Source of the DNA: Ruegeria atlantica
GTDB taxonomy: Bacteria; Pseudomonadota; Alphaproteobacteria; Rhodobacterales; Rhodobacteraceae
DNA: 64,000 nt
NCBI RefSeq assembly: GCF_013033965.1
Contig: NZ_WQFE01000005.1
Location: 178,168-242,167 of the forward strand
Reading direction: 5' to 3'
Under the pieces are notes generated by a model that saw only the letters and a program-made list of their open reading frames with translations, was not told where the DNA came from and did no database searches. The position numbers and the translations under genes are program-made. The first letter of the stretch is position 1. Each line of letters begins with the position of its first letter. Shown piece by piece: positions 6,974 to 58,265 of the stretch.

Positions 6974-6997
6974 GCCTCTTCACGAAAGGTGAAAACA

Positions 6998-7471: not shown

Positions 7472-7493
7472 TTCGCTGACAGAAATCGCTAAA

Positions 7494-7743: not shown

Positions 7744-8277
7744 ATGAAAGCAAGGATCATTCTTGCCGCAGCAGCCGCAACGCTTGCCGCAGGCTCTGCC
7801 ATTGCACAATCCTCGGGCGATTGGACCGGTTTTTATGCCGGTGGCCAGTTTGGTTACGCCGATATCGACACAAACGTGTCAGGGGCCAGCGGTGATGGCA
7901 CGATAGGCGGTATCATCCTGGGCTACGACTATGACCTTGGAGACTGGGTTGTGGGCGGCGGTTTCGATTATGACTGGACCGGGATTGACCTGACCCCGGG
8001 CATCGAGGTCGAAGACGTTTGGCGCATCAAGGCGCGCGCTGGCTACAAAGTCACGCCCACGGGTCTGCTGTACGGTGTTGGCGGTTACGCCAAAGCCGGA
8101 ACCAATAGTCTGGGCAGCGACGACGGCTGGTTCCTGGGCGCGGGCTATGAACAGATTGTTGCGCCCAATGTCAGCGTCGGCGGCGAAATCCTGTATCATG
8201 AATTCAGCAACTTTGACTCATCGGGCATCGACGTGGATGCCACCACAGTACAGATCCGCGCGGCCTATCGTTTCTAA
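7744..8277 (+). CDS. Outer-membrane beta-barrel protein (opacity/OmpW-like porin family)
   Basis: The 177-residue protein has a signal peptide (MKARIILAAAAATLAAGSAI, then AQS) and then DWTGFYAGGQFGYADID, the characteristic opening of small 8-stranded barrel proteins of alphaproteobacteria. Alternating hydrophobic strands follow, ending in a C-terminal phenylalanine (VQIRAAYRF), the signal for barrel assembly. Likely an outer-membrane structural protein; no enzymatic motif. GGAAGG lies upstream of the ATG. Transcribed alone and convergent with the quinone oxidoreductase gene. Confidence 0.88.
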   Translation: MKARIILAAAAATLAAGSAIAQSSGDWTGFYAGGQFGYADIDTNVSGASGDGTIGGIILGYDYDLGDWVVGGGFDYDWTGIDLTPGIEVEDVWRIKARAGYKVTPTGLLYGVGGYAKAGTNSLGSDDGWFLGAGYEQIVAPNVSVGGEILYHEFSNFDSSGIDVDATTVQIRAAYRF

Positions 8278-8296
8278 ATACACGCGCTGTTTCGTC

Positions 8297-8322
8297 GGAC
8301 CCGGCCTCGATCAGCCGGGTCC
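8297..8322. terminator. Bidirectional hairpin between convergent genes
   Basis: GGACCCGGC / GCCGGGTCC, a 9-bp stem with an 8-nt loop, lies between the barrel-protein gene and the convergent quinone oxidoreductase gene. Confidence 0.6.
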
Positions 8323-8330
8323 ACGTGTTT

Positions 8331-9314
8331 CTACAGCTCCAAGACCGTGCTGCCGGTCGTCTGGCGGGCCTCAAGCGCCCGATGAGCCTCGGCCACGTCT
8401 TCGAGCGGAAATCGCTGGTCGATATGAATCTTGACCTCGCCGCCTTCGACTTTTCCGAACAACCGCCGCGCCATTGCCTGACAGACGGAATGGTCAGCGA
8501 TGTGAGTAAACAATGTCGGCCGGGTGATTTTCAACGAGCCTTTCTTGCCCAGAATGCCGATATCCATCAATGGAACTGGCCCCGATGCGTTCCCGAATGA
8601 GATCATCATTCCCAAAGGTTTCAGGCAGTCCAGGGAGCCATTGAACGTATCCGCGCCGATGGAGTCCATCACCACATCCACCCCCTTGCCGCCGGTTATT
8701 TCGGCCACACGCTCGGCAAAATCCTCAGTCCGGTAGTTGATACAATGCGCAGCCCCGTTGAACTGCGCAAGGCTGCATTTCTCATCCGTTCCGGCCGTCC
8801 CGATCAGGGTTATTCCCTCGGATTTCGCCCATTGGCAAGCAATCAGGCCAACGCCGCCAGCCGCAGCGTGAAACAGAACCGTATCCCCCCGTTTCAAAGG
8901 CGTTGTCCGGTGAAACAGATACTCCACCGTCATCCCCTTGAGCATCATCGCCGCTGCCGCATCAAAGGAAATCCCTTCGGACAATGGGCATACCTGCGCC
9001 GCAGGCATAACGCGTGCCTCGCAATAGGCACCCGCAGGGGCGGCGGCGTAAGCCGCGCGCTGGCCCGGCGTCAAATGGGTGACGCCTTCACCAACGGCTT
9101 CGATCACGCCCGCAGCTTCCATGCCCAGCGCATGCGGTAACTCCAACGGGTACAACCCGGTGCGCTGATAGACATCAATAAAGTTCAGCCCGCAGGCCCG
9201 GTGGCGGATGCGAACCTCACCAGGTCCGGGATCGCCCAAAGGCCGGTCTTCGATCTTCAAAACTTCGGGGCCGCCGTGTTCATGAATGACGACGGTTCTT
9301 GCCGTTTGCTGCAT
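8331..9314 (-). CDS. qorA: NADPH:quinone oxidoreductase, MDR superfamily
   Basis: A 327-residue zinc-free medium-chain reductase. The N-terminal GroES-like half contains GPGEVRIRHRACGLNFIDVY and GMEAAGVIEAVGEGV; the Rossmann half has HAAAGGVGLIACQWAK, the AxxGVG nucleotide loop, and GKGVDVVMDSIG. This matches the QOR/zeta-crystallin group that reduces quinones with NADPH. The quinone-reductase assignment is by family; the true electron acceptor is not readable. The start has an AGGAGGT-like site (the complement of ACCTCCT next to the ATG). Monocistronic. Confidence 0.9.
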   Translation of the reverse strand: MQQTARTVVIHEHGGPEVLKIEDRPLGDPGPGEVRIRHRACGLNFIDVYQRTGLYPLELPHALGMEAAGVIEAVGEGVTHLTPGQRAAYAAAPAGAYCEARVMPAAQVCPLSEGISFDAAAAMMLKGMTVEYLFHRTTPLKRGDTVLFHAAAGGVGLIACQWAKSEGITLIGTAGTDEKCSLAQFNGAAHCINYRTEDFAERVAEITGGKGVDVVMDSIGADTFNGSLDCLKPLGMMISFGNASGPVPLMDIGILGKKGSLKITRPTLFTHIADHSVCQAMARRLFGKVEGGEVKIHIDQRFPLEDVAEAHRALEARQTTGSTVLEL

Positions 9315-9412
9315 GCTGACCTCCTGTTGCCTGACGCCAAGCTAACACGACTGTGAAACAGGGCAATTGGTAGGTTTTCGCTGCCGCGCAACCACAACGC
9401 GAAAAACTGTGC

Positions 9413-9457
9413 TATACTAAGGTCTGAGCGTTGCCGGCTGGTCCGGCCAAAGGCAAC
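9413..9457 (+). promoter_or_regulatory. Possible -10 box and leader hairpin of the DUF2189 gene
   Basis: TATACT at 9413-9418 sits about 87 bp before the DUF2189 start; no good -35 is seen. It is followed by a GTTGCC / GGCAAC hairpin (9430-9435 with 9452-9457) with an inner GGC/GCC pairing. Suggestive only. Confidence 0.3.
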
Positions 9458-9504
9458 CAACGCCGGATTCACCCCGCTGCGCATTGGCATAGGGAGGGGT
9501 CAAG

Positions 9505-10362
9505 ATGGCCAAAACCATTGGAAATCCGATCAGTTGGGCCGCACGAAACATCGGCGCGACCGGCGATCATATCACCGAAAGCGTGAACCGCATCGGCAGC
9601 GCGGATACGCAGCACCTGCCACAGGTGCAAACCCTGACAATGCAGGACCTGAAGGCCTGTTTGCAGGCCGGGTATAATGATTTCCTTGAAACGCGGGCTG
9701 ATGCCATTTTCATCGTTCTGATTTACCCGGTCGCAGGTCTGTTGATGTTCGGGTTCGGCCTGAACCGCAATATGGTTCCTCTGCTGGCACCACTGATCAT
9801 GGGATTTGCGCTTGTAGGTCCAATCGCCGCCGTTGGCCTTTATGAAATCAGCCGCAAACGCGAACTGGGCGGCGAAGTACATTGGCTGGACGCATTTGGC
9901 GTCTTCCGATCACCGTCCTTCGGGGCAATTCTGGCTTTGGGGTTCTATCTGGTCATGCTGCTGCTGGTCTGGCTGATGGTCGCGCAAAGCATCTATGTGC
10001 ATACGCTAGGGCCTGATCTGCCAACCTCGTTCGGAGCCTTCGTGACTCAGGTCTTCACCACGGGCGCAGGCTGGTCGATGATCATCTTTGGCAATGCGAT
10101 CGGCTTCCTCTTTGCGCTGGTCGCACTAGCGGTCAGCGTCGTCAGCTTTCCGCTGCTTCTGGACCGGCCGGTTGGCCTGCCAGTGGCGGTCGTCACGTCT
10201 GTCCGGGTGTTGCGTCAAAACCCTGGTGTCATCCTGGCATGGGGGTTCATCGTGGCGGCCCTGTTGATCATCGGAGCCATCCCGATGCTGCTGGGACTGA
10301 TTGTTGTCATGCCAGTTCTGGGCCACGCAACCTGGCATCTGTACCGCCGTGCAGTGGCCTGA
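9505..10362 (+). CDS. DUF2189 integral membrane protein
   Basis: A 285-residue protein with a soluble N-terminus of about 65 residues and six hydrophobic helices after it (for example FIVLIYPVAGLLMFGFGL and ILALGFYLVMLLLVWLMVAQ). The sequence MGFALVGPIAAVGLYEISR and the C-terminal PVLGHATWHLYRRAVA are typical of DUF2189. Function is unknown; in some bacteria such proteins lie near cytochrome oxidase genes, which is not the case here. The ATG at 9505 has a GGGAGGGG ribosome-binding site. Confidence 0.9.
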   Translation: MAKTIGNPISWAARNIGATGDHITESVNRIGSADTQHLPQVQTLTMQDLKACLQAGYNDFLETRADAIFIVLIYPVAGLLMFGFGLNRNMVPLLAPLIMGFALVGPIAAVGLYEISRKRELGGEVHWLDAFGVFRSPSFGAILALGFYLVMLLLVWLMVAQSIYVHTLGPDLPTSFGAFVTQVFTTGAGWSMIIFGNAIGFLFALVALAVSVVSFPLLLDRPVGLPVAVVTSVRVLRQNPGVILAWGFIVAALLIIGAIPMLLGLIVVMPVLGHATWHLYRRAVA

Positions 10363-10370
10363 TGGGAAAC

Positions 10371-10391
10371 AGCGCGGGATATACCCGCGCT
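10371..10391. terminator. Bidirectional hairpin between convergent genes
   Basis: AGCGCGGG / CCCGCGCT, 8-bp stem, ATATA loop, followed by TGTAGTTT on the plus strand. It sits in the 35-bp gap between the DUF2189 gene and the convergent oxidoreductase. Confidence 0.65.
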
Positions 10392-10397
10392 TGTAGT

Positions 10398-11384
10398 TTA
10401 GTCGGAGACCTTGAGGACAATCTTGCCGATATGACCCGAGCTTTCCATGCGCGCATGGGCGGCCGACGCCTCGGCCAGATCGAACTCACTGTCCATGACG
10501 GGGGCCACCTTCCCGGCCTCCAGCAATGGCCAGACGGCCTCGCCCAGATCCTGCGCGATCTTCGCCTTCGCCAGATCGCTTTGTGGCCGCAAAGTGCTGC
10601 CGGTCAGCGTCAGGCGTTTGACCATCATCATCGCAAAATTCAACTCGACTTTTGGCCCTTGCAGGAACGCGATCTGAACCAGACGGCCATCCTCGGCCAG
10701 GGCCTTGACGTTACGTGGGATGTAATCACCACCGACCATATCAAGGATCAGGTTCGCCCCACCCTCGGCGCGCATGACGCCAACGAAATCCTCATCGCGG
10801 TAGTTGATTGCCTTCTCGGCGCCAAGTTTTACGCAAGCTTCACATTTTTCGGCAGACCCCGCGGTTGCAAACACCCGCGCGCCAAACGCATTCGCCAACT
10901 GGATCGCCGTTGTGCCTATACCGCTGGACCCGCCATGGACCAAAAACCGTTCACCCGCCTTCAATCCACCGCGGGTGAACACATTGGACCAGACCGTAAA
11001 GAAGGTTTCGGGCAGACAGGCGGCCTCTTTCAATCCCATGCCCTTTGGAACCGGCAGGCAATGCGCGGCAGGCGTCGCCACGTATTCCGCATAGCCGCCA
11101 CCGGGCAACAATGCACAAACCTGATCGCCAATTGCCAATCCGGCAACACCGGCACCAACGGCAACAATCTCGCCCGAAGCCTCAAGCCCCGGCAAATCGC
11201 TGGCACCCGGAGGCGGGTCGTATGCCCCGGCGCGCTGCAATGCATCGGGCCGGTTTACCCCCGCATAGGCGACTTTCAGAATAACCTGACCGGTTTGAGG
11301 TTCGGGCACAGGGCGTTCCGTCAGTTGCAAAACGTCCGGGCCACCGGGTTTGGTGATTTCGACAGCGCGCATCATCTGGGTCAT
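10398..11384 (-). CDS. NAD(P)H quinone oxidoreductase, PIG3-like MDR family
   Basis: A 328-residue medium-chain reductase of the TP53I3/PIG3 type: MRAVEITKPGGPDVLQL, VAYAGVNRPDALQRAGAYDP, PGLEASGEIVAVG, FLVHGGSSGIGTTAIQLANA (nucleotide loop), and GGANLILDMVGGDYIPRN. It reduces quinones with NAD(P)H and has no zinc ligands. I chose the ATG at 11384 because AAGGAG lies 8 nt upstream; ATG 12 bp further in is possible. It shares only about a third of its residues by eye with the qorA-like gene at 8331, so they are distinct subfamilies, not a duplication. Confidence 0.88.
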   Translation of the reverse strand: MTQMMRAVEITKPGGPDVLQLTERPVPEPQTGQVILKVAYAGVNRPDALQRAGAYDPPPGASDLPGLEASGEIVAVGAGVAGLAIGDQVCALLPGGGYAEYVATPAAHCLPVPKGMGLKEAACLPETFFTVWSNVFTRGGLKAGERFLVHGGSSGIGTTAIQLANAFGARVFATAGSAEKCEACVKLGAEKAINYRDEDFVGVMRAEGGANLILDMVGGDYIPRNVKALAEDGRLVQIAFLQGPKVELNFAMMMVKRLTLTGSTLRPQSDLAKAKIAQDLGEAVWPLLEAGKVAPVMDSEFDLAEASAAHARMESSGHIGKIVLKVSD

Positions 11385-47076: not shown

Positions 47077-48354
47077 TCAGCCAGCGCTGATTGCCTGAAC
47101 CGCTTTTTCAACGGCCATCCGCGTCTGTTCCAGATCGGCCTGAGTCACGGCCAGCGACGGATAAAGCTTGCCGGGGGATTTGAATATCCCATGAACGCGC
47201 AGCGTATCGTTATAGACAGCATTGCGACGGGGATCGTCATGCTTGGCGCTACGGTAGTCTCGGCAGTCCGCTTCGGTGAAATAGATGTCGAACAGTGTTT
47301 CGTCACCGCAAACCCGATGCGGAATACCGGCTTCGCTCAGTGCCTCCACCTGCATCTGTTGCAATTCGGCCCCGATTTCACGCAAGCGATCATACACCCC
47401 GTCACGCCGCAAGATCTCCATTGTCTTCAGCCCGGCGACCGAGGCGACCGGGTTACCTGACAGCGTGCCCAATTGCATCAACCAACCTTCCTCGCCGACT
47501 TGTGCCTTGTCGAAATGCTTCATGATCTCGGCGCTTGCACCCGTCGCGGCCAGAGGGAACCCACCGCCAGTGATTTTGCCCAGAGTGCAGATATCAGGCG
47601 TCACGCCATACTTCTCCTGTGCACCACCATAGGCCAGGCGGAACCCTGTGACGATTTCATCGAAAATGAGCAGAACATTGTGTTTATCGCAAAGATCTCG
47701 CAATCCCTGAAGGTATCCGGGCATCGGAGGGATGATTCGTTGCAGCGGCTCGACCATAATTGCAGCAATGTCATCATGTTCATCCAGCAGGTTGGCAACA
47801 GCTTCCAGATCGTTGAACGGTGCGATCAGCATCTGCTCGGCGACGCCTTCGGGGATGCCGGCGCTGTCAGGTACGGCCTGCGGGAAATTAACATTGCGGC
47901 TGGGGGCAAGGCTCATCTGTGCCTCGGCGCTCATCCCGTGATAGCCGCCTTCGAATTTCAGGATCTTGTTGCGCCCCGTATAAGCCCGCGCCAAACGGAT
48001 CGCGTACATGTCCGCCTCACCGCCTGAGGCGACAAAACGCATCTGCTCGCAACAGGGCACAGCATCGACGATGGCCTCGGCCAGTTCAATGCCCTTGGCG
48101 TTGTTGGCAAAGAACGTCATGCCTTTGGGCAGTTGTTCGAGAACGGCTTCCATCACTTCGGGGTGGCCATGGCCCAGCAACATCGGGCCAGAGCCGATCA
48201 GGTAGTCGATATACTCGTTGCCATCCTCATCCCAGACATGGCTGCCTTCGCCGCGGGAAATGATGATGCCCGGGTCGAAATTGCCGAACCCTCCGGCGGG
48301 CAGAACCTCGTTTGCGCGGGTAATCCATTCGGATTGGGTGTTGATTTTCAGCAT
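47077..48354 (-). CDS. Class III aminotransferase, glutamate-1-semialdehyde aminomutase-like
   Basis: A 425-residue PLP enzyme. GHGHPEVMEAVLEQLPKG, VASGGEADMYAIRLARAYTG, KFEGGYHGMSAE, LIFDEIVTGFR, and the PLP lysine in CTLGKITGGGFPLAA are all present, with GTLSGNPVASVAGL as in HemL. Given the catabolic operon it closes, it is more likely an aminotransferase on an amino-acid-like intermediate than the tetrapyrrole enzyme, although hemE and hemC are next to it. Start at 48354 is 1 bp past the stop of the enolase-superfamily gene, with GGAG 10 nt upstream. Last gene of the seven-gene operon. Confidence 0.85.
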   Translation of the reverse strand: MLKINTQSEWITRANEVLPAGGFGNFDPGIIISRGEGSHVWDEDGNEYIDYLIGSGPMLLGHGHPEVMEAVLEQLPKGMTFFANNAKGIELAEAIVDAVPCCEQMRFVASGGEADMYAIRLARAYTGRNKILKFEGGYHGMSAEAQMSLAPSRNVNFPQAVPDSAGIPEGVAEQMLIAPFNDLEAVANLLDEHDDIAAIMVEPLQRIIPPMPGYLQGLRDLCDKHNVLLIFDEIVTGFRLAYGGAQEKYGVTPDICTLGKITGGGFPLAATGASAEIMKHFDKAQVGEEGWLMQLGTLSGNPVASVAGLKTMEILRRDGVYDRLREIGAELQQMQVEALSEAGIPHRVCGDETLFDIYFTEADCRDYRSAKHDDPRRNAVYNDTLRVHGIFKSPGKLYPSLAVTQADLEQTRMAVEKAVQAISAG

Positions 48355-48355
48355 G

Positions 48356-49459
48356 TCAAACGATCTCCAATATTGGCAGGCCAAGGACTTCGAGGTCTGG
48401 TACAACACCTAGCCCCGGACCTTCGGGCGGCGCAATCCGGCCGCTGTCACGGTTTGGTGCGTCCGGACAAATGCGCGGAGATACATACGAGGACAAGTCG
48501 CAGGTGTTCATCAACGACCCGTGCGGGGTCGAAGCCGCAAAATGCAGCGACGCGGCGGTCACGATATCCGAGCCCCAGGTGCATTCGGCGCAGATTTCGG
48601 CACCGAAATGCACCGTCAAATCACGTGCACGCCGCATGGCCGACAAGCCGCCGAACTTGGACAGTTTCAAGGCGACGGCATCCATGCAGCCAAGCTCATG
48701 GGCGCGCTGCAACGACGCCAGATCATGCGCGTTCTCGTCAATCTTCATCGGATGACCAGTAGCCTGCCGCACAGCAGCGCAGTCCTCAAGCGTTTTACAG
48801 GGCTGTTCCAGCATCACATCCAGATGCGCCACCGCCCGACCCGTTCGCGTCGCCTGCAGCCGCGATGCACCGCAGTTCCAATCGCCATACACCAGCGGCC
48901 CCGGCCCGACGGCCTCGCGCACTTTGGTCAGTCGTTCGGCATCGGCCTGCCAGTCACCCTCGACCCCCAGCTTGACCTGAAACTGACGAATGCCGGTCTG
49001 GTAGGCCGTCTTGGCGATCCGCGCCATTTCATCCGGCGCAACGCATGTGATCGAGTGGTAAAGCGGCATATCCCGCCGCGTCCGTCCGCCCAGCAGCGCG
49101 TAAACCGGTTGGCCGGTGGCCTTTCCGAATAAGTCCCACAGGGCAATATCGACAATGGACTTCGCATAGCGGTGCCCTTGCAAAAACCCGTCCAGCTTGC
49201 GCATCGGCGCATCCACCCCGAACGGGGACATACCCAAAATCTCGGGGGCCATCTCGGCAATCGCACCCGGCACACCACCCGCGTAAGCAGGCAGGTAATG
49301 CGGGATCGGGCAGACCTCGCCCCATCCAGTCAAGCCGGTATCCGTCTCAAGGCACAGAATATGAGAGGTCACAGTCGCGCAGGTTTTACCTTCAGCCATG
49401 TGATAGGTCTCATGGCTCGTCAGATCGACAGACCAGAGCGTTATCCCGGAGATCCTCAC
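48356..49459 (-). CDS. Mandelate racemase/muconate lactonizing enzyme family protein (1)
   Basis: A 367-residue enolase-superfamily enzyme: N-terminal capping domain (LETDTGLTGWGEVCPIPHYL) and a barrel with Lys163 (FQVKLG), metal ligands Asp193 (YGDWNCG), Glu218 (LEQPCKT) and Asp241 (KIDENAHDL), and Lys265 (ALKLSKFGG). The two opposed lysines fit a 1,1-proton transfer (racemase/epimerase). The ligand spacing and the LEQPC motif resemble the 4-hydroxyproline-betaine 2-epimerase HpbD, but overall identity by eye is moderate, so the substrate is open. Overlaps the next enolase gene by 4 bp. Confidence 0.87.
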   Translation of the reverse strand: MRISGITLWSVDLTSHETYHMAEGKTCATVTSHILCLETDTGLTGWGEVCPIPHYLPAYAGGVPGAIAEMAPEILGMSPFGVDAPMRKLDGFLQGHRYAKSIVDIALWDLFGKATGQPVYALLGGRTRRDMPLYHSITCVAPDEMARIAKTAYQTGIRQFQVKLGVEGDWQADAERLTKVREAVGPGPLVYGDWNCGASRLQATRTGRAVAHLDVMLEQPCKTLEDCAAVRQATGHPMKIDENAHDLASLQRAHELGCMDAVALKLSKFGGLSAMRRARDLTVHFGAEICAECTWGSDIVTAASLHFAASTPHGSLMNTCDLSSYVSPRICPDAPNRDSGRIAPPEGPGLGVVPDLEVLGLPILEIV

Positions 49460-50562
49460 TGATAGGTCCTGACAGGATCGCCCAGCGCATCCTCATCCGG
49501 GTGCACGCCAAGCCCTGGCGAATCCGGCAAATGTAGGTGCCCGTCAATATTACGCGGACCACGGCCCCCGGCGATATCGACGGTGATCATGTCCTGACAG
49601 GCCCAGACGGCACGGCAATTGTCGTCCGGGATGGTGGCCGCCAGATGCAGCGCCTCGGTATCAGCCAGAACCGATCCGCCTGTGGCCATCACGAACATGT
49701 CGATCCCATGCGCCAGCGCGATATCCCGCATCCTTGCAGCCTTGGTCAGCCCGCCAACGCGGTTCAGTTTGATACCAAACACCTCGGCCAGCCCATCGCG
49801 GGCAATCCGCGCAGCGTCCTGCAGGGTCACCAGGCTCTCATCCACGGAAACGGGCGAGGCATGACGGCCCGAAATTGCTGCGATGTCGTCCAGTGACTCG
49901 CCGGGTTGTTCGAATGTGACGTTCAGGTCCTCGCAGGCACTCATCACTCGCAGGGCTTGCTGGCGGGTCCAGCCACGGTTGACGTCATAGAGTACGATCT
50001 CTTCCGGTCGTCGGATGCTTTCCACATCGCGCACTCGGGCAATGTCACGCTCCACATCACCACCGATCTTCACCGAATGGGCGACATAGCCGCGGCTGCG
50101 ATAGCGTTCCATGACCTCGCGGGTTTCATCTACCGTTTTGGCCCCAACCGAGGATGCAATCGGGCGCGGCGTCCGTGATCCACCGCCCATCAGGTCGGCA
50201 ATCGGCAGTCCCGCCGCTTGCCCGGCAATGTCCCAGCAGGCCATATCGATCGGGCTTTTGGCATAGAGGTGGCCGGGCAAGGCGATATCCATCGCCCGTT
50301 CCACATCCAGCACCCGACGCGGATCAAGGCCCAGAATGAATGGCGCCATCGTCTCGATCCCCGCGCGAATGCCCGGGCCATGCGCGGGTACATAGGTATG
50401 CCCCCATGGGGTACCCTCGCCCCAACCAATCAGGCCACTATCCGTTTCAACCTTGACCAGCGTTGCATCCAGCACTTCGAACTTCAGCCGGCCGCCGCAC
50501 AACCAATATGGATGCTCGAGCGGCAGATCGACATGATAGACCGAGATTCGGGTAATTTTCAT
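49456..50562 (-). CDS. Mandelate racemase/muconate lactonizing enzyme family protein (2)
   Basis: A 368-residue enolase-superfamily enzyme with the start MKITRISVYHVDLPLEHPYW and capping loop VKVETDSGLIGWGEGTPWG. Catalytic Lys165 (SVKIGG), ligands Asp193 (LYDVNRGW), Glu218 (TFEQPGES), Asp241 (SVDESLV), and Lys265 (GIKLNRVGG). It shares the same ligand numbering as its neighbour but differs in most other positions, so the two are diverged paralogues with probably different substrates. Overlaps the cupin gene by 4 bp. Confidence 0.87.
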   Translation of the reverse strand: MKITRISVYHVDLPLEHPYWLCGGRLKFEVLDATLVKVETDSGLIGWGEGTPWGHTYVPAHGPGIRAGIETMAPFILGLDPRRVLDVERAMDIALPGHLYAKSPIDMACWDIAGQAAGLPIADLMGGGSRTPRPIASSVGAKTVDETREVMERYRSRGYVAHSVKIGGDVERDIARVRDVESIRRPEEIVLYDVNRGWTRQQALRVMSACEDLNVTFEQPGESLDDIAAISGRHASPVSVDESLVTLQDAARIARDGLAEVFGIKLNRVGGLTKAARMRDIALAHGIDMFVMATGGSVLADTEALHLAATIPDDNCRAVWACQDMITVDIAGGRGPRNIDGHLHLPDSPGLGVHPDEDALGDPVRTYQ

Positions 50563-50843
50563 TTCAGTTCCACTTCAACAAAGGACATCGGTTCGTCCCC
50601 GGCATTGATGACATTGTGCTCGACGCCCTCGTCACGGCGGTAGGCGGTTCCCGCAGGAACCAAAACTTCGTTGACAGAGCCGTCGGGCAATTCCAGCCGC
50701 ATATGGCAATCGGTTATGGCTGTGATGACGTAATCCATCGAATGACGGTGCCACCCGGTTTCGGCATCAGGCGCAAAGTCAAATCGCGTCACCCGCACGC
50801 GGGCGTCATCGATCATCTGGGTTGCAACGGCTTGCGGTCTCAT
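50559..50843 (-). CDS. Small single-domain cupin
   Basis: A 94-residue cupin: FDFAPDAETGWHRHSMDYVI supplies the first metal-binding motif (G-x-H-x-H) and VEHNVINAGDEPMSFVEVEL the second histidine. It resembles the short BauB-like cupins near beta-alanine and amine catabolic genes. May be an isomerase, lyase or sensor; unknown. A 98-bp gap separates it from the DddQ-like gene upstream; it overlaps the next enolase gene by 4 bp. Confidence 0.82.
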   Translation of the reverse strand: MRPQAVATQMIDDARVRVTRFDFAPDAETGWHRHSMDYVITAITDCHMRLELPDGSVNEVLVPAGTAYRRDEGVEHNVINAGDEPMSFVEVELK

Positions 50844-50941
50844 AGGCTGACTTCCTCAATCGGTTCACGCAGCATGGCACAACGACACCGGCCCGCCCAC
50901 GTAGGGAAGGCCAATCTGACAGACAGGGACAGGCGTTATTT

Positions 50942-51520
50942 TCATGCGGCATCCATTTGCGGCAAATCGTTCAACCCCTGACCTCGCCAAAGGACGAAAG
51001 TCAGAATTGGCTCATCGGTTGTGGTCATCGCATGGCTTTGCCAGCTGCGGTGATGCCGTGTCCGGTTGGGACCGACGTAAGTCTCGTCACCTTCGACGCG
51101 GAACCTCGCCCCGCCGCCTACGACCAAATACAGTTCCTCGGCCTGATGGCTGTGCCAATCATAATTCAAACCGGCCCCCCAATAGGCAACGTAACCGCGT
51201 AATTGGGTCGAGTGGAAATGCCCGGTGGGGCCGAACAATTCGTAATAGCCGTAGCGGTTGAGGAAATCGGCTCCGACCTCTTCCTCGGTATAGGTATGTT
51301 TCCATTGCGCCAGATGCGCAGTTGCCTTTATCGCGTCGGACAAGGATCGCGTCGAGCGCTCGGTCGGGAACTCGGTTTGCTGAACCAATTCCACCGCCGG
51401 AATTTGGTTTGGTTCCAGACCCGCCGCCATAAGGTCATCGGGCCAGGCACTAAAGGCTGAAAGCTCGGGATTCGATTGGTGAAGCTGTCGGGCGGCCTCA
51501 AGAACATCGTTCATTGTCAT
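50942..51520 (-). CDS. dddQ: DddQ-like DMSP lyase (cupin)
   Basis: A 192-residue cupin, the same length as DddQ of Ruegeria lacuscaerulensis. The DddQ active-site set falls at identical positions: Tyr120, His123, His125, Glu129 and Tyr131 in [14 protein letters not shown], and His163 in SWQSHAMTT. Four of these (His125, Glu129, Tyr131, His163) bind the metal in the published structure, and Tyr residues act as base. DddQ cleaves dimethylsulphoniopropionate to DMS and acrylate in the cytoplasm. Non-lyase members of this cupin group exist, so activity needs proof. The ATG overlaps the MDR stop by 4 bp. Confidence 0.8.
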
Positions 51521-52599
51521 GGGATCACCACGATGTTTCCGGTGTGTTTCTTTGCGATGAACGCAGCCTGCGCCTCGCGCAATTCTTCCAACGGATAGGT
51601 TGCGGCCAGCGCAGGTTTGATCTCACCAGCTTCAATATACTTCACCAGATTCTGCATCACCTGTGGGTCAATCACGGTCGAGCCCGTGAAGGTCAGGTCG
51701 CGCAAATAGAACGTACGCAGGTCGAATTCGACCATCGGCCCGGCAATCGCGCCTGAACAGGTATAGCGCCCGCCGCGCTCCAGAATGTCGATCAGGTGTG
51801 GCCAGTAAGGGCCACCAACCACGTCAGCGACAACGGTGATCCTTTCATCCCCAAGGGCAGCACGCAGGTTATCCGGAGCGCGCGGCAAGATAACGTCCGG
51901 CCCCAAGACCGCCACATCCGCATGTTTCGCCTCTGACGCCAGTGCGATAACGCGCGCGCGTCGGCGCTTGGCCAATTGCACCAGGGCACCACCGACCCCT
52001 CCCGAGGCGCCGGGAACCAGGACGGTGTCGGCGTCGGTTACGTTGGCGCGGGTCAGCATACCTTCGGCGGTCGAATAGGAACAGGAGAACGTGGCCAGTT
52101 CGGCATCCGACAGATCGGATCGGATCGGCACCGCGTTTACGGCCAGCGTTGTGGCGTACTCGGCAAACCCCCCGTCCCGTTCCGAGCCGAAATAGCCGGT
52201 TTTGTCCTTGTTTGCCGGATCGGTGGGATCGTGCAGCCAGCCGTCCGTTATGACACGTTGTCCAATACGCGCGCTGTCGACACCCTCTCCCACGGCGACG
52301 ATTTCCCCGCAGATGTCAGCCCCCTGAATTCGGGGGAAAGTAATCGGAGCGCCACCCCATGTCGGATCTTCCTCTCCGACATCCTCGAACGCTCCGCCGG
52401 TGGTGGCATCAGTGACCGTTTTGGAATACCAGCCCGAACGTGTGTTGACGTCGGTGTTGTTCAGACCGCAGGCCGCAACCTTGATCAGCACCTCTCCGGC
52501 AGCGGGTTCAGGGCGTGGCCAGTCCTCATGCAATATCATTTGATCCAAACCGCCATGACCCATCGTGACCATCGCTTTCATTTTGTCAGGCAGGCTCAT
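51517..52599 (-). CDS. MDR-family zinc-type alcohol dehydrogenase-like protein
   Basis: A 360-residue medium-chain dehydrogenase/reductase. GroES-like half with [20 protein letters not shown] and [18 protein letters not shown]; Rossmann half with [20 protein letters not shown] and [20 protein letters not shown]. The usual catalytic zinc cysteine seems present (ACGLNNTD) but the second ligand pair is unclear, so it may be a quinone/enoyl reductase rather than an alcohol dehydrogenase. In a DMSP setting an acrylate- or acryloyl-type reductase is a possible role; inference only. Overlaps dddQ by 4 bp and the FAD/GcvT gene by 1 bp. Confidence 0.85.
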
Positions 52600-55052
52600 T
52601 ATGCAGTCTCCAGAATGGCGTCGGTACGAGGCAGCAGGCTTTCGGGATCATAGGCGGGTTCGCCCAGAACACGAGCTGCGCGCGGTTTGCCGTGAATTAC
52701 AACTTGCAACTCGGTCCCGGCAGTGGCCGCCTCGGGTTTGACGTAGGCAAAGGCGAGGATCTTGCCGACGGTATGGCCATAAGCCACCGAGGCGGTCGAG
52801 CCTACGACCGTGCCGTTCAACATGACAGCTTCGCCACCGTGGCCGTCAATCTCGCCATCCGGGGCGATCTCAAGGTATGCGCAAACCCAAGGCAGGTCAG
52901 TGTTCAGGGTCTTGTCCTTGCCCAGATAGTCCTTGTCTGTTCGGGCAAAGCGCAGCACGTCGGCCTCGGCCAAAGTGACCTCGTTGGTCAACTCGCCCGC
53001 GCCTTTGAAGCCCTTTTCCATCCGCATCACGTTCATGGCAAAGCTGCCATAGTCGGTGATGCCATACGCCTCACCCGCGGCCCAAAGCGCGTTGTAGACG
53101 TCGAGGCAGGCGGCGTTGGGCATGTGCAATTCCCAGCCCAACTCACCAGCATAGGACATGCGGAAGGCCCAAACTTTGTGACCGGCGATGGTGATTTCCT
53201 GCGCGGACAGCCAGCGGAACACGGCATTGGTCAGGTCGGCTTCGGTGCAGCGGGCCAGCACGTCACGTGACCGGGGGCCGTTTAGCGACAGGGCAGACCA
53301 GTCAGCCGACAGGGCGGTGATCTGCACATCCTCATTCGCGCGCTGCTGCGCCAGATGATCCAGCAGGCGTTGCTCGAAGAATGCGGCGCAGACCAGATAG
53401 AAGCGGTCTTCGGCCATGCGGACGATGGTCGTCTCCAACTCGATCCGGCCACGGCGGTTCAGCATGTGGGTCAGTGTGATAGAGCCGACCTTTTGCGGCA
53501 TCCGGTTGGCGGTCAACCGATCCAGCAGAGCGTAAGCATCCGGTCCCGAAACCTCGACCTTAGTGAAGGCGGTGACATCCATGATGCCGACGCTTTCGCG
53601 CACCGCTTTGACCTCAGCCGCAACCATATCGTCTGCGGGTGTACGTCGGAAGGAATAGTGATCGCGCTGCGCCACACCGTCCCGCGCGAACCAACGGGGG
53701 CGCTCAAAACCATAGATCTCTTCATGCACCGCACCCTTGGATTTCAGCAGCTCGTACAAAGGCGACGGTTTGATTGGGCGCCCCTCCAAACGGTTGAAAT
53801 GCGGGAAAGGGATCTCGTGGCGCAGGCAATAGTCCTCCTCGGCCTTGATCACCTGCCAATCCTTGGTCGCATAGCTGCCGAAACGGCGCGGATCGAACTC
53901 ACGCATAGAGATATCCGCTGCCCCATGCACCATCCAGCGTGCCAGCTCGCGGGTCAGCCCCGGCCCCCAGCCGATGCCGATCTGCGTTCCGCAGCAGCAC
54001 CAGTAATTCCGCACACCCGGTGCAGGCCCGATCAACGGGTTACCATCTGGCGGGTGCGAGATCGCCCCATGCACATCGCGCTGAATGCCCAGCTCGGCAA
54101 AGATCGGCATCCGGTTCAGGCTTTCCTCAAGCCACGGCATCACCCGGTCATAATCCGCGTCGAACAGCCAGTTCTCGTATTCCCAGGGGCAATGGTCATG
54201 CCAGACTGAGTTCGGGTTCTCTTTCTCGTAGATCCCGATCAGCCCGCGCTGTTGCTCCATCCGGATATAGCCCGAGACTTTACGGTCATCACGGATCACC
54301 GGCAGTTCCTTGTCCAGGTTCTGGAACTCGGGCACCGGCTCGGTCACGAAATAGTGGTGGGTCATAGAAGTCATGGGCAGTTGCAGCCCCGACCATTCGC
54401 CCATCTGACGGGCATAGGTGCCGCCGGCGTTTACAACATGCTCGCAGGTGATGGTGCCCTGCTCGGTCTCAACCACCCACTCGCCATTGTCGGCCTGCGT
54501 GATGTTGGTGGCGCGGCAGTTACGGAAGATGCGCACACCTTTCTGACGCGCGCCGGTTGCCATCGCCATCGTTACATTGGTCGGATCGACATGCCCGTCA
54601 TCCGGCGTGTGCAGCGCGCCCAGAACGCCTTCGAGGTTGTAGAACGGGTGCAACTCGGCCACCCTCTCGGGCCCCACCAGTTCGATGTTGAACCCTAGCG
54701 ACCGGCCCACCGACAGCGTGTGGCGCAGCCAATCCATCTCGTCCTCGGTATAGGCCAGACGGAAAGACCCGCAGCCATGCCACGTGACCGGCTGGCCGGT
54801 TTCGGCCTCCAGCTGACCGGAATAGAGACCAATGTTGTAGTCGACACATTTGCCCAGCCCAAAGCTTGAAGTCGAATGCGTGATCTGCCCCGCCGCGTGC
54901 CATGTGCTGCCACTGGTCAGCTCGGCCTTTTCCAGCAGGACGGTATCCTCGCCCCACCCTTCGTGCGCCAGATGATAGGCCAGACCGACCCCCATGACGC
55001 CGCCTCCGACGATGACCACGCGGGCATGTGACGGCAGTTCGTTCCCGGACAT
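52599..55052 (-). CDS. FAD-dependent dehydrogenase fused to GcvT domain (dimethylglycine/sarcosine dehydrogenase-like)
   Basis: An 817-residue two-domain protein. Residues 1-420 are a DAO-type FAD oxidoreductase (ARVVIVGGGVMGVGLAYHLA; ELTSGSTWHAAGQITHSTSS, where the His/Trp region covalently binds FAD in relatives). Residues 430-817 are a GcvT-like tetrahydrofolate domain (RRTPADDMVAAEVKAVRESV, SYAGELGWELHMPNA, RMEKGFKGAGELTNEVT). Such enzymes oxidatively demethylate N-methyl groups and hand formaldehyde to THF. The substrate is likely dimethylglycine, sarcosine or a related N-methyl amine. First gene of the operon and divergent from rpiR. Not DmdA: that has no FAD domain. Confidence 0.9.
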   Translation of the reverse strand: MSGNELPSHARVVIVGGGVMGVGLAYHLAHEGWGEDTVLLEKAELTSGSTWHAAGQITHSTSSFGLGKCVDYNIGLYSGQLEAETGQPVTWHGCGSFRLAYTEDEMDWLRHTLSVGRSLGFNIELVGPERVAELHPFYNLEGVLGALHTPDDGHVDPTNVTMAMATGARQKGVRIFRNCRATNITQADNGEWVVETEQGTITCEHVVNAGGTYARQMGEWSGLQLPMTSMTHHYFVTEPVPEFQNLDKELPVIRDDRKVSGYIRMEQQRGLIGIYEKENPNSVWHDHCPWEYENWLFDADYDRVMPWLEESLNRMPIFAELGIQRDVHGAISHPPDGNPLIGPAPGVRNYWCCCGTQIGIGWGPGLTRELARWMVHGAADISMREFDPRRFGSYATKDWQVIKAEEDYCLRHEIPFPHFNRLEGRPIKPSPLYELLKSKGAVHEEIYGFERPRWFARDGVAQRDHYSFRRTPADDMVAAEVKAVRESVGIMDVTAFTKVEVSGPDAYALLDRLTANRMPQKVGSITLTHMLNRRGRIELETTIVRMAEDRFYLVCAAFFEQRLLDHLAQQRANEDVQITALSADWSALSLNGPRSRDVLARCTEADLTNAVFRWLSAQEITIAGHKVWAFRMSYAGELGWELHMPNAACLDVYNALWAAGEAYGITDYGSFAMNVMRMEKGFKGAGELTNEVTLAEADVLRFARTDKDYLGKDKTLNTDLPWVCAYLEIAPDGEIDGHGGEAVMLNGTVVGSTASVAYGHTVGKILAFAYVKPEAATAGTELQVVIHGKPRAARVLGEPAYDPESLLPRTDAILETA

Positions 55053-55098
55053 GATTTTTCCTCTTCCCGAGTCGCGTTTCTGCTCGACAGGCTAATTC

Positions 55099-55143
55099 CA
55101 CAAATGTACCATCGTCAATCATGAATGACACAAATGTATCATC
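55099..55143. promoter_or_regulatory. Direct-repeat operator candidate between the FAD/GcvT gene and the RpiR regulator
   Basis: CACAAATGTACCATC (55099-55113) and CACAAATGTATCATC (55129-55143) match at 14 of 15 positions and lie 30 bp apart, about three helical turns. The first is in the 68-bp divergent gap, the second overlaps the first codons of the regulator gene. On the minus strand TTGACG precedes the first copy and may be a -35 box. Probably the RpiR binding sites. Confidence 0.6.
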
Positions 55144-56008
55144 CTCCGTTCTCGACCGCCTGAGCCAGGAGTGGGACGCCCTCACCCCCGAGGCGCAGAA
55201 AGCCGCGCGTTACGTGCTGGAAAACCCAACGGACGTTGGGGTTTCAACCGTGCGCGAGATTGCCGAGGCCGCCAATGTCAAACCCAATACATTCGTGCGC
55301 ATGGCCCGGCAGGTTGGGTTCGACGGGTACGAGGATTTCCGCGCCCCTTTCCGCGACGCGATTCGGAAAGGCACCGTGTCGTTCCCCGACCGCGCCCGCT
55401 GGCTGCAGGATATCGGTAAGTCAGGGGAGTTGGGCGGGCTTTACGCCGATATGGTCGGGGCTGCGATCCGCAATATCGAAGAGACCTTCGCCGGGATCGA
55501 CGCCGCGACCCTGAAAGCGGCGGCCGAAGGTATCTGGAACTGCCGGCAGATTTTCACGCTGGGCGTGGGCGTCAACAATTCGAACGCGCGTAACTTCACT
55601 TACCTTGCCTCAACGGGGATGAAGCAGTTCCACGCCATCCCGCGCCCCGGCTCGACCCCGGTGGATGATTTGGCATGGGCGGACCAGCAGGACGTACTGA
55701 TCGCGATCACCTGCCACCCCTACCGGACTGAGGTGATCGAGGCCGTCAAACTGGCCCGCGAACAGGGCCTGACCGTCGTTGGTATTTCCGACAGTCTGGC
55801 CAGCCCGGTGATCCTGAATGCCCATCACGGCTTTGTCGTCGCCGCGGACACACCGCAATTCTTCCCGTCTTCCGTCTCAACCATCGCCCTGCTGGAAACG
55901 CTGCTGTCCTTCGTGATTGCTGTTTCCAGCGATGAGATCGTTGAACGGGTGGAACGGTTTCATCTTCGCCGCCACCAACTTGGCCTCTATGCGGAAGAAC
56001 CAGAATGA
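55121..56008 (+). CDS. RpiR/MurR-family transcriptional regulator with SIS domain
   Basis: A 295-residue regulator: N-terminal HTH_6 domain (RYVLENPTDVGVSTVREIAE, AANVKPNTFVRMARQVGFDG) and a SIS domain (IFTLGVGVNNSNARNFTYLA, DVLIAITCHPYRTEVIEAVK). RpiR proteins usually sense phosphosugars, but roseobacter members govern amine and osmolyte catabolism operons. It is divergent from the FAD/GcvT operon and translationally coupled to the Rieske gene (4-bp overlap), so it likely controls both sides, including itself, through the direct repeats. Confidence 0.9.
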   Translation: MNDTNVSSSVLDRLSQEWDALTPEAQKAARYVLENPTDVGVSTVREIAEAANVKPNTFVRMARQVGFDGYEDFRAPFRDAIRKGTVSFPDRARWLQDIGKSGELGGLYADMVGAAIRNIEETFAGIDAATLKAAAEGIWNCRQIFTLGVGVNNSNARNFTYLASTGMKQFHAIPRPGSTPVDDLAWADQQDVLIAITCHPYRTEVIEAVKLAREQGLTVVGISDSLASPVILNAHHGFVVAADTPQFFPSSVSTIALLETLLSFVIAVSSDEIVERVERFHLRRHQLGLYAEEPE

Positions 56009-57093
56009 ACGCACCCCCGACCCACTCACTGGACGCGCGATACTATACCGACCCCGCGATTTTCGAGCAGGAGATACAGGGCCTTCTGGCCCGAACATGG
56101 CAGTTTGCAGGGCACGTGGCGCAAGTCCGGGAACCCGGCGACTATTTTGCTTTTGAAATCGCCGGGCAAAACCTGTTCTGTATTCGCGGCCGCGACGGTG
56201 AAATCCGCACCTTCTACAACGTCTGCCAACACCGCGCGCATGAGATGGTCACAGGCGCGGGCAACACCCGTGTTGTCGTCTGCCCATATCACGCCTGGAC
56301 TTATGAGCTGACCGGCCAGCTGCGCGCGGGACCCAACATCAAATCCGTCCCGGGCTTTGACCGCAGCACCATCTGCCTGACTTCTGTCCGAACTGAAATC
56401 TTCAATGGCTTCATCTTCGTCAATCTCGACGACGACGCCGCCCCGATGGATGAATGGTACCCCGGCGTGCGTGAGGAAATCCGCGCGTTCGTTCCCCATA
56501 TTGACGATCTGGAACCGCTGGAATGGGTCGAGATCCCGGAAAACTGCAACTGGAAGGTCAGCATCGAGAACTACTCGGAATGCTACCACTGCCCGACCAA
56601 TCACCCGACCTTTGCCGAAGGCGTGGTCAAGCCCGAAACCTATGACATCCAGCCCGACGCAGGCGGCGGCTATGTCCTGCGCCACACGACGGAATGTCAG
56701 AGCCTCGACAAGATGACCTATCCCATCGACCTGTCAGTGCCACATGCGGGCGACTATCAGTCATGGTTCCTGTGGCCGATGTTCTCGTTCCAATGCTACC
56801 CCGGCAATGTGCTGAACACCTATCACTGGCGCGCGATTGATGCCGATCACTGCACCGTCTGGCGCGGCTGGTACACCGAAGGCGGCTCGGAAAGTGCGGT
56901 GATCCGGCAACTGGCGGTACAGGACCGTGAAACCACGGTCGAGGAAGACATCCACCTCGTCGAAAGCGTTCACCGCGGCCTGAAATCCCGAGGCTACCGC
57001 CCCGGCCCGCTTGTGCTGGATCCCGGTTGCGGTGTGATGTCAGAGCATTCGATCGCTCGCTTGCAGCAATGGATGCGCGAGGCGGTGGAGTAA
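56005..57093 (+). CDS. Rieske-type oxygenase alpha subunit (carnitine/betaine monooxygenase-like)
   Basis: A 362-residue protein with a Rieske 2Fe-2S motif CQHRAHEMV ... CPYHAWTY (C-x-H-x15-17-C-x2-H) and a non-haem iron site in ENYSECYHCPTNHPTF with a downstream acidic ligand. The last third (LVESVHRGLKSRGYRPG) closely resembles CntA/GbcA/YeaW-type enzymes that attack quaternary amines such as carnitine, glycine betaine or stachydrine. These need a separate reductase, which is not in this window. It may open the path that the FAD/GcvT enzyme continues. Coupled to rpiR. Confidence 0.88.
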   Translation: MNAPPTHSLDARYYTDPAIFEQEIQGLLARTWQFAGHVAQVREPGDYFAFEIAGQNLFCIRGRDGEIRTFYNVCQHRAHEMVTGAGNTRVVVCPYHAWTYELTGQLRAGPNIKSVPGFDRSTICLTSVRTEIFNGFIFVNLDDDAAPMDEWYPGVREEIRAFVPHIDDLEPLEWVEIPENCNWKVSIENYSECYHCPTNHPTFAEGVVKPETYDIQPDAGGGYVLRHTTECQSLDKMTYPIDLSVPHAGDYQSWFLWPMFSFQCYPGNVLNTYHWRAIDADHCTVWRGWYTEGGSESAVIRQLAVQDRETTVEEDIHLVESVHRGLKSRGYRPGPLVLDPGCGVMSEHSIARLQQWMREAVE

Positions 57094-57214
57094 TTCTGAA
57101 CCCTCAAAAAAGTGACGCACCGAACTTGGTCGGACGGGTACAGTCCCGGACGAACCCAGGTTATGATCGCATTCACGAACACCGCGCAAGGCAATGAAGA
57201 ACCGGAGACCATAC

Positions 57215-57598
57215 ATGGCTGATATTTTCGACGAAGACCTGTTCCTGAAAGGCCTGGAACAGCGCAAGAATACGCTTGGCGCGGAATATGTGGAAAAGAA
57301 CCTGGAGGCGGCAGATGACTTTACCCGCCCGTTTCAGGAGGCCATGACCGCGTGGTGTTGGGGGTTTGGCTGGGGCGATGACGTGATTGACCCCAAGACT
57401 CGATCGATGATGAACCTGTCCATGATCGGCGCGTTAGGCAAAATGCATGAATGGGAAATTCACTGCAAAGGCGCGATCAACAACGGCGTCTCGCCCGAGG
57501 AAATCCGTGCCATCATCCACGTGATCGGGATTTACTGCGGCGTTCCACAAGCGCTGGAGTGTTTCCGCGTTGCGCGAAAGGTTCTGGCAGGAACCTGA
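57215..57598 (+). CDS. Carboxymuconolactone decarboxylase family protein
   Basis: A 127-residue all-helical protein: LGAEYVEKNLEAADDFTRPF, DPKTRSMMNLSMIGALGKMH, and IRAIIHVIGIYCGVPQALEC. The fold is that of PcaC/AhpD proteins. It lacks the AhpD CxxC pair, so it is closer to the decarboxylase/isomerase branch; function unknown. The ATG at 57215 has GGAG upstream. It follows the Rieske gene by 121 bp and is closed by a strong terminator, ending this transcription unit. Confidence 0.85.
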   Translation: MADIFDEDLFLKGLEQRKNTLGAEYVEKNLEAADDFTRPFQEAMTAWCWGFGWGDDVIDPKTRSMMNLSMIGALGKMHEWEIHCKGAINNGVSPEEIRAIIHVIGIYCGVPQALECFRVARKVLAGT

Positions 57599-57662: not shown

Positions 57663-58265
57663 TTACTCGAGCGACACCCACAGCACTTTCGCATCTTCTT
57701 CACTGGTCGAAATACACCCGTGCCCCATCCCGCTGTCATAATAAAGCGAGTCGCCAGCTTTCATCGGCAATGGGCGATAATGCTCTGATACAAAGATCAG
57801 CTCACCACTGATGACATACATGAACTCTTCGCCCGTGTGCCGAATCCAAGTGTCAAACTCGGACAGGTCACGCGCCTTGATCGTCGCAATGTAAGGCAGC
57901 ATCCGCTTGCTGGTTAGCTCGGGACATAGCAATTCGTGCAAATAGGTCGGCGTGCTTTTTATCTCGCCTTCACCTTTCGGGGTAAAGTCGCGCCTTCCCG
58001 AAATCCCCGATTGCCCGGACTGCAGAAACAGCTGCGGCGTGCTCATATCGAGCGCCTGCGTCAGCCTGCGCACGATGTCGAAACTCGGCCGCGTCTGGTT
58101 GTTTTCGATCTTCGATAAAGTGGACCGACCGATTCCCGCCGCGCGTCCGGCTTCCTCCAAAGTCCAGCCTTTTGCGCGCCGCGCATCGCGAATGGACCGC
58201 CCCAGAACCTCACCTTCGTCCTGATCTTCCGGAGAAGAAACATCATTTCGGGTTTCGTCGCCCAT
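57663..58265 (-). CDS. XRE-family regulator with C-terminal cupin domain
   Basis: A 200-residue regulator: HTH (SIRDARRAKGWTLEEAGRAA, GIGRSTLSKIENNQTRPSFD) at about 22-80 and a cupin sensor domain (IRHTGEEFMYVISGELIFV, AGDSLYYDSGMGHG) at 115-200. XRE-cupin proteins sense small metabolites such as amines or amino acids. It is divergent from glyA with a 147-bp gap that holds a palindrome over the glyA -10 box, so it probably controls the glyA unit. Confidence 0.92.
   Translation of the reverse strand: MGDETRNDVSSPEDQDEGEVLGRSIRDARRAKGWTLEEAGRAAGIGRSTLSKIENNQTRPSFDIVRRLTQALDMSTPQLFLQSGQSGISGRRDFTPKGEGEIKSTPTYLHELLCPELTSKRMLPYIATIKARDLSEFDTWIRHTGEEFMYVISGELIFVSEHYRPLPMKAGDSLYYDSGMGHGCISTSEEDAKVLWVSLE

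Follow-up and report, generated by a model that had tools for sequence, protein, structure and literature searches.

What would a gene for a dimethylsulfoniopropionate (DMSP) lyase contribute to an operon predicted to remove N-methyl groups? The question is raised by a stretch of 64,000 nucleotides from Ruegeria atlantica, referred to below as the window (NCBI RefSeq assembly GCF_013033965.1, contig NZ_WQFE01000005.1, positions 178,168 to 242,167). Seven minus-strand genes are packed there within positions 47077-55052. They were designated, in order, FADGcvT (a fusion of FAD and GcvT domains), MDR (a medium-chain reductase/dehydrogenase), DddQ (a cupin of the DMSP lyase family), CUP94 (a small cupin), ENO1 and ENO2 (two enolase-superfamily proteins) and AT3 (a class III aminotransferase). 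The original prediction, made from the sequence alone, had described a tightly packed run of genes of these families; the coordinates agree with it and domain searches confirmed every family. Beside FADGcvT a divergent plus-strand arm carries RpiR, then a Rieske oxygenase gene, then CMD, encoding a carboxymuconolactone-decarboxylase-like protein.

The seven genes had been regarded as the unit, and their order does recur in many genomes, but the divergent arm, which lay outside the earlier coordinates, belongs to it too: the unit is a ten-gene, two-armed cluster, larger than the seven-gene run. This cluster probably serves a modular catabolism of a betaine-type (quaternary ammonium) carboxylate, in which DddQ is likely to be an accessory lyase for a side branch. 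No account of this operon was found in the literature searched, a collection thin in subscription papers.

Conserved core and optional insert

A scan of genome contigs with FADGcvT returned 375 relatives, the best 80 of which were mapped and counted. These 80 named loci are the relatives closest to the window and share ancestry, so the counts given below are not independent. Operon counts refer to the 74 loci that reach AT3; four others (L090, L100, L125 and L137) end before it.

RpiR was present in 79 of the 80 loci, the Rieske oxygenase gene in 78, and ENO2 in 73 of the 74 operons. The other genes downstream of FADGcvT were less regular: ENO1, together with its variant ENO1b, was found in 50 operons, MDR in 47, DddQ in 32 (and absent from 42), a third enolase gene, ENO3, also in 32, and CUP94 in 17. 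The mapped genes were reduced to FADGcvT, ENO2 and AT3, with no insert gene, in 20 of the 74. MDR was accompanied by ENO1 in 46 of its 47 occurrences, and ENO3 was found only together with MDR (32/32). The Rieske arm contained CMD in 62 of the 80 loci and an aldehyde dehydrogenase gene of the betaine aldehyde dehydrogenase (BADH)-like type in 34. The cluster consists of a conserved core (RpiR, Rieske, FADGcvT, ENO2 and AT3) and an optional insert (MDR, DddQ, ENO3, CUP94 and ENO1), and on the gene counts in the 74 operons DddQ is a part of this insert, which lies between FADGcvT and ENO2. A comparison of gene order across relatives had been proposed earlier for the seven genes, taken as one pathway linking a DMSP lyase to N-demethylation. 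The order recurs in many genomes, but the insert genes, DddQ included, are optional, and the single pathway gave way to a core with an insert.

Core and insert genes were also found apart. In two genomes of the same genus (G248 and G076) RpiR-MDR-DddQ-ENO3-(CUP94)-ENO1-AT3 occupies the place beside hemC/hemE (named by eye), where FADGcvT, Rieske and ENO2 are missing; FADGcvT (82-83 %) and Rieske (84-85 %) stand together on another contig with ENO2 and CMD. The second locus of G248 adds RpiR, an MDR (52 %), an aldehyde dehydrogenase, a BCCT transporter and a different class III aminotransferase; at the second locus of G076 RpiR, MDR and AT3 were not found. Mixed ancestry was evident within single loci as well: in L136 Rieske is 97 % identical to that of the window yet ENO2 is 67 % identical, and in L091, L092 and L095 FADGcvT reaches 90-91 % yet Rieske 70-71 %. 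Among 72,556 plasmid records FADGcvT at 68 % identity or more was present in four, accompanied by Rieske; DddQ gave no match at E 1e-20.

Predicted route of the core enzymes

The nearest solved relative of FADGcvT is dimethylglycine dehydrogenase (4pab, 526 bits), matched over residues 7-802, and the domains DAO, FAO_M, GCV_T and GCV_T_C follow one another in this order across the whole length of the protein. For the Rieske protein the closest solved chain is carnitine monooxygenase CntA (6y8j, 213 bits). Unlike these two known enzymes, the corresponding proteins of the window are coupled to enolases and a class III aminotransferase, and the Rieske protein falls far below the cut-off of the glycine betaine monooxygenase GbcA model NF058607 (156.9 bits, cut-off 670). 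AT3 remained below the cut-offs of the hemL models (PRK00062, 385 of 398; TIGR00713, 366 of 527).

To judge from these families, the Rieske oxygenase would take off the first N-methyl group and FADGcvT the next ones, with the carbon passed to folate. The enolase-superfamily proteins would remove the proton alpha to the carboxylate, with either inversion of this centre or expulsion of a beta leaving group, AT3 would remove the freed amine, and the aldehyde dehydrogenase encoded in the Rieske arm of some relatives would complete the oxidation. DddQ would likewise abstract an alpha proton and expel a beta onium group. Substrates from which a beta group leaves readily (DMSP or a nitrogen analogue) would thus gain a shorter route, and MDR would handle an unsaturated product of DddQ or of ENO1/ENO3.

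The genes that adjoin the core in some relatives bear on the class of substrate. In L261 a gene for a BCCT transporter (502 bits, cut-off 27) lies between those for aldehyde dehydrogenase and CMD, and the same place in L144 holds a 75 % relative of it. GbdR-like regulators were found near the core in L206, L261 and L263 (260-280 bits) and weakly in L266 (78 bits), all under the cut-off of 480, and HcaD-like Rieske reductases beside the core in L261 and L263. The core of L263, on a Mesorhizobium plasmid, is also accompanied by electron transfer flavoprotein (ETF) genes and an Opp-type binding protein, that of L266, on a Roseovarius plasmid, by a POT-type ABC transporter 33 bp past AT3, that of L198 by a DapA-like/ketoglutarate semialdehyde (KGSA)-dehydrogenase-like pair and an SBP3-type ABC transporter, and that of L206 by a BKACE gene. 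Since a BCCT or other transporter, a Rieske reductase and a GbdR-like regulator adjoin the core in some relatives, a betaine-type substrate is supported, and the neighbours point to betaine-type compounds as a class, not to one compound. The earlier proposal of a route for an N-methylated carboxylate, distinct from DMSP cleavage alone and from the plain glycine-betaine pathway, agrees with the CntA-like Rieske protein, the dimethylglycine dehydrogenase-like FADGcvT and the BCCT and GbdR-like neighbours, but one fixed pathway cannot be maintained.

These same proteins and neighbours, together with the BKACE gene, would be expected if the cluster were a plain operon for the degradation of glycine betaine, choline or carnitine. 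Such an operon is rather improbable, given the low GbcA score (157 bits, cut-off 670), the structure of glycine betaine, in which there is neither an alpha stereocentre nor a leaving group to call for several enolases, and the presence in the genome of 13 other full-length FAD-GcvT paralogues, which could handle glycine betaine.

Several observations weigh against the catabolism of a betaine-type carboxylate by this cluster. The domain scan of the ten window genes detected no aldehyde dehydrogenase, transporter or Rieske reductase, glycine-betaine and hydroxyproline models score far from their cut-offs at the window genes, and BCCT was found in only 2 of 216 stretches over 4 kb. No uptake system recurs: the only transport proteins that could be named by eye in the 12 clusters of unknown proteins present in at least five loci are an ABC ATPase/permease pair, which belongs to the Ruegeria neighbourhood beyond hemC. 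In L098 and L101, which were left out of the 74 operons, the sequence continues downstream but no AT3 was mapped. Among 17 more distant loci (L198-L214, FADGcvT 47-80 %) AT3 lies by FADGcvT in 12, and seven of these 12 (L201-L205, L207 and L209) are without a mapped enolase. Because of these seven loci and of L098 and L101, neither the enolase step nor the AT3 step is universal. Finally, a Ruegeria pomeroyi dddQ mutant is reported to produce 97 % less dimethyl sulfide, which speaks for a real role in DMSP breakdown (PMC5395565).

Enolase-superfamily proteins

Both enolases of the window are of the MR/MLE type (PF13378/PF02746). The lysines and metal ligands K163, D193, E218, D241 and K265 are kept in 51/51 ENO1 and 34/34 ENO3 proteins, and in 73/73 ENO2 relatives except for K163 (72/73). 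The same two lysines and three metal ligands are present in 4e8g, 2pmq and 4mgg, solved relatives of ENO1-3 which we take to be betaine epimerases and a cis-3-hydroxyproline dehydratase. In contrast to these enzymes, up to three or four paralogues are found per operon, and ENO1 and ENO2 score 314.8 and 331.5 bits against the cis-3-hydroxy-L-proline dehydratase model NF043002, under its NCBIfam cut-off of 500. The column that holds Trp in 4e8g is occupied by Trp in 51/51 ENO1, by Cys in 73/73 ENO2 and by Thr, as in 4mgg, in 34/34 ENO3 proteins. The HpbD residue corresponding to this Trp presumably makes a cation-pi contact to the betaine nitrogen. Judged by the residues of this column, ENO1 may bind a quaternary substrate, and ENO2 and ENO3 may bind a demethylated or differently placed one.

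The relatives 4mgg, 4e8g and 2pmq and the Trp of ENO1 would also fit an HpbD-type pathway for hydroxyproline betaine or proline betaine, in which the enolases would act as 2-epimerases or 3-hydroxyproline dehydratases on cyclic betaines. The hydroxyproline dehydratase model is indeed the best NCBIfam score of ENO1 and ENO2 (315 and 331 bits), and in L198 the DapA-like and KGSA-dehydrogenase-like genes lie beside the core. However, both proteins remain below the model cut-off, a ring amine needs no class III aminotransferase, and no proline-type oxidase or deaminase was found among the ten genes scanned. A pathway of this type is considered unlikely.

The algal betaine lipid diacylglyceryl-hydroxymethyl-N,N,N-trimethyl-beta-alanine (DGTA) has a head group with a chiral carbon beside the carboxylate, beta-onium and beta-oxygen leaving groups and, after demethylation, a terminal amine. 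If a branched beta-amino acid betaine such as this head group were the substrate, it would be demethylated, transaminated at CH2-NH2 and oxidized, and the enolases and DddQ would remove the beta-oxygen or beta-onium groups. The structure of the head group would suit the chemistry of the enolases, DddQ, the aminotransferase and the aldehyde dehydrogenase, but this explanation lacks direct sequence support and no lipase or ether-cleaving enzyme was found among the recurring neighbour clusters. It is thought improbable.

Whichever betaine-type carboxylate is used, the locus supplies a context for two enolase-superfamily structures without a function in their name: PDB 3eez is an apparent orthologue of ENO1 (742 bits) and PDB 2rdx an apparent orthologue of ENO3 (689 bits), and their molecule names state the superfamily only.

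DddQ and the breakdown of DMSP

The DddQ protein of the window exceeds the gathering score of PF16867 (DMSP_lyase), 27 bits, with 70.6 bits, and among solved structures it is closest to the DddQ chains 4la2/5jso (E 2e-88). It holds Y120, H123, H125, E129, Y131 and H163, six residues described as essential in DddQ in the residue list of PMC4437653, and these catalytic residues are retained in 35/35 DddQ-type proteins of the named loci. Nevertheless, DddQ is the least conserved of the eight genes in 24 of the 25 loci that hold all eight, with a median identity to the window of 73 % versus 88-95 %. The ratio of nonsynonymous to synonymous change (omega) was 0.07-0.12 for DddQ in the eight finite values of ten comparisons, two with saturated synonymous sites being left out; medians of the other five genes were 0.03-0.05, with single values up to 0.085. 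Positive selection was considered as the cause of this divergence and rejected, as such omega values correspond to purifying selection, only less stringent than in the other genes. Of the genes measured in L073 and L075, DddQ was the only one with saturated synonymous sites, which suggests allele replacement.

The surroundings of DddQ were compared over a wider range. A search of 292 genomes of the order gave a match in 118, mostly weak, and one place in each of 40 genomes was taken from the 41 that ranked best apart from the genome of the window, with G034 omitted; a single place, on a 3.2-kb contig, was then left out, giving 39 loci. DddQ sits in this operon in 28 of the 39, and the 11 loci outside the operon hold more distant DddQ-like proteins. 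DddQ adjoins MDR in 27 loci, 26 of them within the operon; in the 27th (L065) MDR-DddQ is divergent from GST-CMD, without the core.

An association of dddQ with MDR in roseobacters has been described for the dddQ clusters of R. pomeroyi (dddQ) and Roseovarius nubinhibens (dddQ1/dddQ2) in PMC3338564. The available part of this paper names the MDR only, and the demethylases, enolases, aminotransferase, divergent arm and optionality of dddQ are not mentioned there. By its title, the family of cupin DMSP lyases and lyase-like proteins (Lei et al. 2018) holds DddQ, and some of its members are of unknown function; the association with a betaine operon offers a concrete alternative role.

Could the cluster simply be a DMSP-catabolic operon, in which DMSP is split by DddQ into acrylate and dimethyl sulfide, MDR serves to reduce the acrylate so formed and the remaining genes take no part? 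DddQ is close to the tested enzyme of R. lacuscaerulensis and has all six residues, the reported phenotype of the R. pomeroyi mutant (PMC5395565) would be in line with it, and a DMSP demethylase over its cut-off in the same genome means that the cell likely meets DMSP. Against this, DddQ is missing from 42 of the 74 operons, while ENO2 (73/74), Rieske (78/80) and RpiR (79/80) stay. Also, MDR reaches 39.8 bits with the AcuI acrylyl-CoA reductase model NF051456, whose cut-off is 440, and the tested MDR of a dddQ cluster failed to correct acrylate sensitivity (PMC3338564). A purely DMSP-catabolic operon is very unlikely. Since DddQ is present in some relatives and absent from others, its role here is likely to be in betaine use rather than, or besides, DMSP breakdown.

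The DMSP demethylase DmdA of this genome is encoded at C23:385097-386194 (L183; 694.7 bits, cut-off 410), so that DMSP use exists independently of the operon.

A relative of the window protein has a Km of 22 mM for DMSP (PMC5395565), and DMSP induces dddQ with dddP modestly, 1-4 fold, versus 40 fold for dddW (PMC4437653). Such weak kinetics raise the question of the native substrate, which the locus would make testable with defined partner enzymes and a defined list of betaines. A bolder proposal, offered tentatively and with considerable doubt, is that the reaction for which DddQ evolved, and which it carries out in most roseobacters, is the cleavage of a nitrogen betaine bearing a leaving group of the beta-onium or beta-oxygen kind, DMSP cleavage being a side activity. 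Candidates for this substrate would be a beta-amino acid betaine and the head group of algal betaine lipids. The matter is of wider importance because dddQ serves as a marker of marine dimethyl sulfide production. If dddQ is in most cases an optional part of a betaine operon, its abundance may not report DMSP cleavage, and if the nitrogen-betaine proposal were true, dddQ counts in ocean surveys would reflect betaine use no less than the formation of dimethyl sulfide.

The gap between DddQ and CUP94

In relatives with ENO3, this gene fills the space between the end of DddQ and the start of the following gene. In the window, part of the gap at this place aligns with the beginning of ENO3, and the right-hand end of the gap with the ENO3 terminus, most clearly in L074 (scores 41 and 35) among the eight relatives compared; in L085 and L088 only the tail of the alignment was clear (30), and several other comparisons were weak or placed elsewhere. 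The translated gap matches the ENO3 start MKITRIRIYQTGLPYVGG at 12 of 18 residues, and its frame ends with EPIEEVSL*, where ENO3 ends with EPIEEFRL. Because both translated ends match the start and end of ENO3, the 98-bp gap is the scar of an internal deletion of the third enolase gene. Gaps of 87-91 bp without ENO3 lie between DddQ and the next gene in L077, L084, L086 and L087, and L123 has 151 bp of unlike sequence there.

Gene junctions and the divergent promoter region

The features of the cluster are collected in Table 1. Apart from the +98 bp between DddQ and CUP94 the genes of the minus-strand arm are joined by overlaps or a 1-bp gap, as had been noted from the sequence: FADGcvT and MDR overlap by 1 bp, and the MDR/DddQ, CUP94/ENO1 and ENO1/ENO2 junctions are overlaps of 4 bp each. 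The open frame of AT3 extends to 48408, but the internal ATG at 48354 is its likely start, and with this start ENO2 and AT3 are separated by 1 bp.

Table 1. Features of the two-armed cluster (positions in the window)
Feature	Position	Strand	Assignment	Main evidence
AT3	47077..48354	-	Class III aminotransferase, glutamate-1-semialdehyde aminomutase group; core	PF00202, 219.8 bits
ENO2	48356..49459	-	MR/MLE enolase superfamily; core	PF13378; nearest solved chain 4mgg, 266 bits
ENO1	49456..50562	-	Second MR/MLE enolase; insert	3eez, 742 bits
CUP94	50559..50843	-	94-aa single-domain cupin (Cupin_2); insert	PF07883, 39.2 bits
ENO3 deletion scar	50840..50945	-	26-codon start stub whose frame opens within the stop codon of DddQ; the C-terminal end of ENO3 continues into the start of CUP94	
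DddQ	50942..51520	-	Cupin of the DMSP lyase family; insert	PF16867, 70.6 bits; 4la2, E 2e-88
MDR	51517..52599	-	Medium-chain reductase/dehydrogenase; insert	PF08240/PF13602; PIG3, 133.5 bits
FADGcvT	52599..55052	-	FAD + GcvT fusion, dimethylglycine dehydrogenase type, predicted N-demethylase; core	PF01266 + PF16350 + PF01571 + PF08669
Divergent promoter/operator region	55053..55138	.	Putative operator	Repeat pair TACATTTGT at 55100-55138
RpiR	55121..56008	+	HTH + SIS regulator; core	PF01418 + PF01380
Rieske oxygenase alpha subunit	56005..57093	+	Predicted first N-demethylation; core	PF00355 + PF00848; CntA-like
CMD	57194..57598	+	Carboxymuconolactone-decarboxylase-like; Rieske arm	PF02627

The sequence TACATTTGT is present twice, 30 bp apart, in the region between the two arms, and this is the sole such pair in the genome (one match; reversed control, 0). 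When the 80 intergenic regions were aligned, the copy nearer FADGcvT was found to vary in relatives, for example as TACAAATGT and TATTTTTGT among the 30 shown. A search for a regulon with this putative RpiR operator gave no further sites in the genome, and RpiR would control this locus only. Promoter and terminator scans remained at chance level (3 found versus 4.1 expected and 9 found versus 9.2 expected, respectively) and were not used.

Neighbouring genes and related loci

Directly past CMD a gene for an HTH-cupin regulator lies on the minus strand (57663-58265), followed by genes resembling glyA, lpd and lipA by eye. Among the 80 named loci this regulator was mapped in L074, L077, L085, L086 and L088 only.

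Genes for an arylmalonate-decarboxylase-like protein and a sulfotransferase-like protein occur as a pair in the Rieske arm of many relatives, the former in 28 and the latter in 27 of the 80 loci. The arylmalonate-decarboxylase-like protein (Pfam score 24.9, cut-off 25.9) was accompanied by MDR in 24/24 operons counted. The pair is not claimed as a part of the pathway; in the window genome it lies elsewhere, at L216 (C47:171001-191000), from position 8195.

Two other additions to the pathway were considered. A dedicated transporter beside the operon was rejected, only single relatives having BCCT, POT-type, Opp-type or SBP3-type systems. In L207 (positions 3010-4272) an M24 protein nearest DddP is encoded in the same direction between AT3 and the CMD-aldehyde dehydrogenase genes in a locus distantly related to the operon. 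M24 proteins of this kind form a broad family (77 of 385 genomes of the class, often in several copies), and for this reason and because the protein stays under the DddP cut-off (304, cut-off 600) the replacement of DddQ by DddP was given little weight.

A second association of DddQ-like and Rieske proteins was seen outside the operon in L058 and L066, where a DddQ-type cupin gene adjoins two Rieske oxygenase genes. The window genome itself contains 14 FAD-GcvT (dimethylglycine-dehydrogenase-like) genes of full or almost full length, an extensive set for dealing with N-methyl compounds. At L215 of this genome (C47:72001-92000), positions 2192-11079 hold a row of FAD-GcvT, cupin, MDR, homocysteine S-methyltransferase, AraC-type regulator (by eye) and second FAD-GcvT genes. 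The cupin, of 158 aa, matches DMSP_lyase under the cut-off and the MDR is 44 % identical to that of the window, so the cupin-MDR-FADGcvT trio recurs at a paralogous locus of the same genome.

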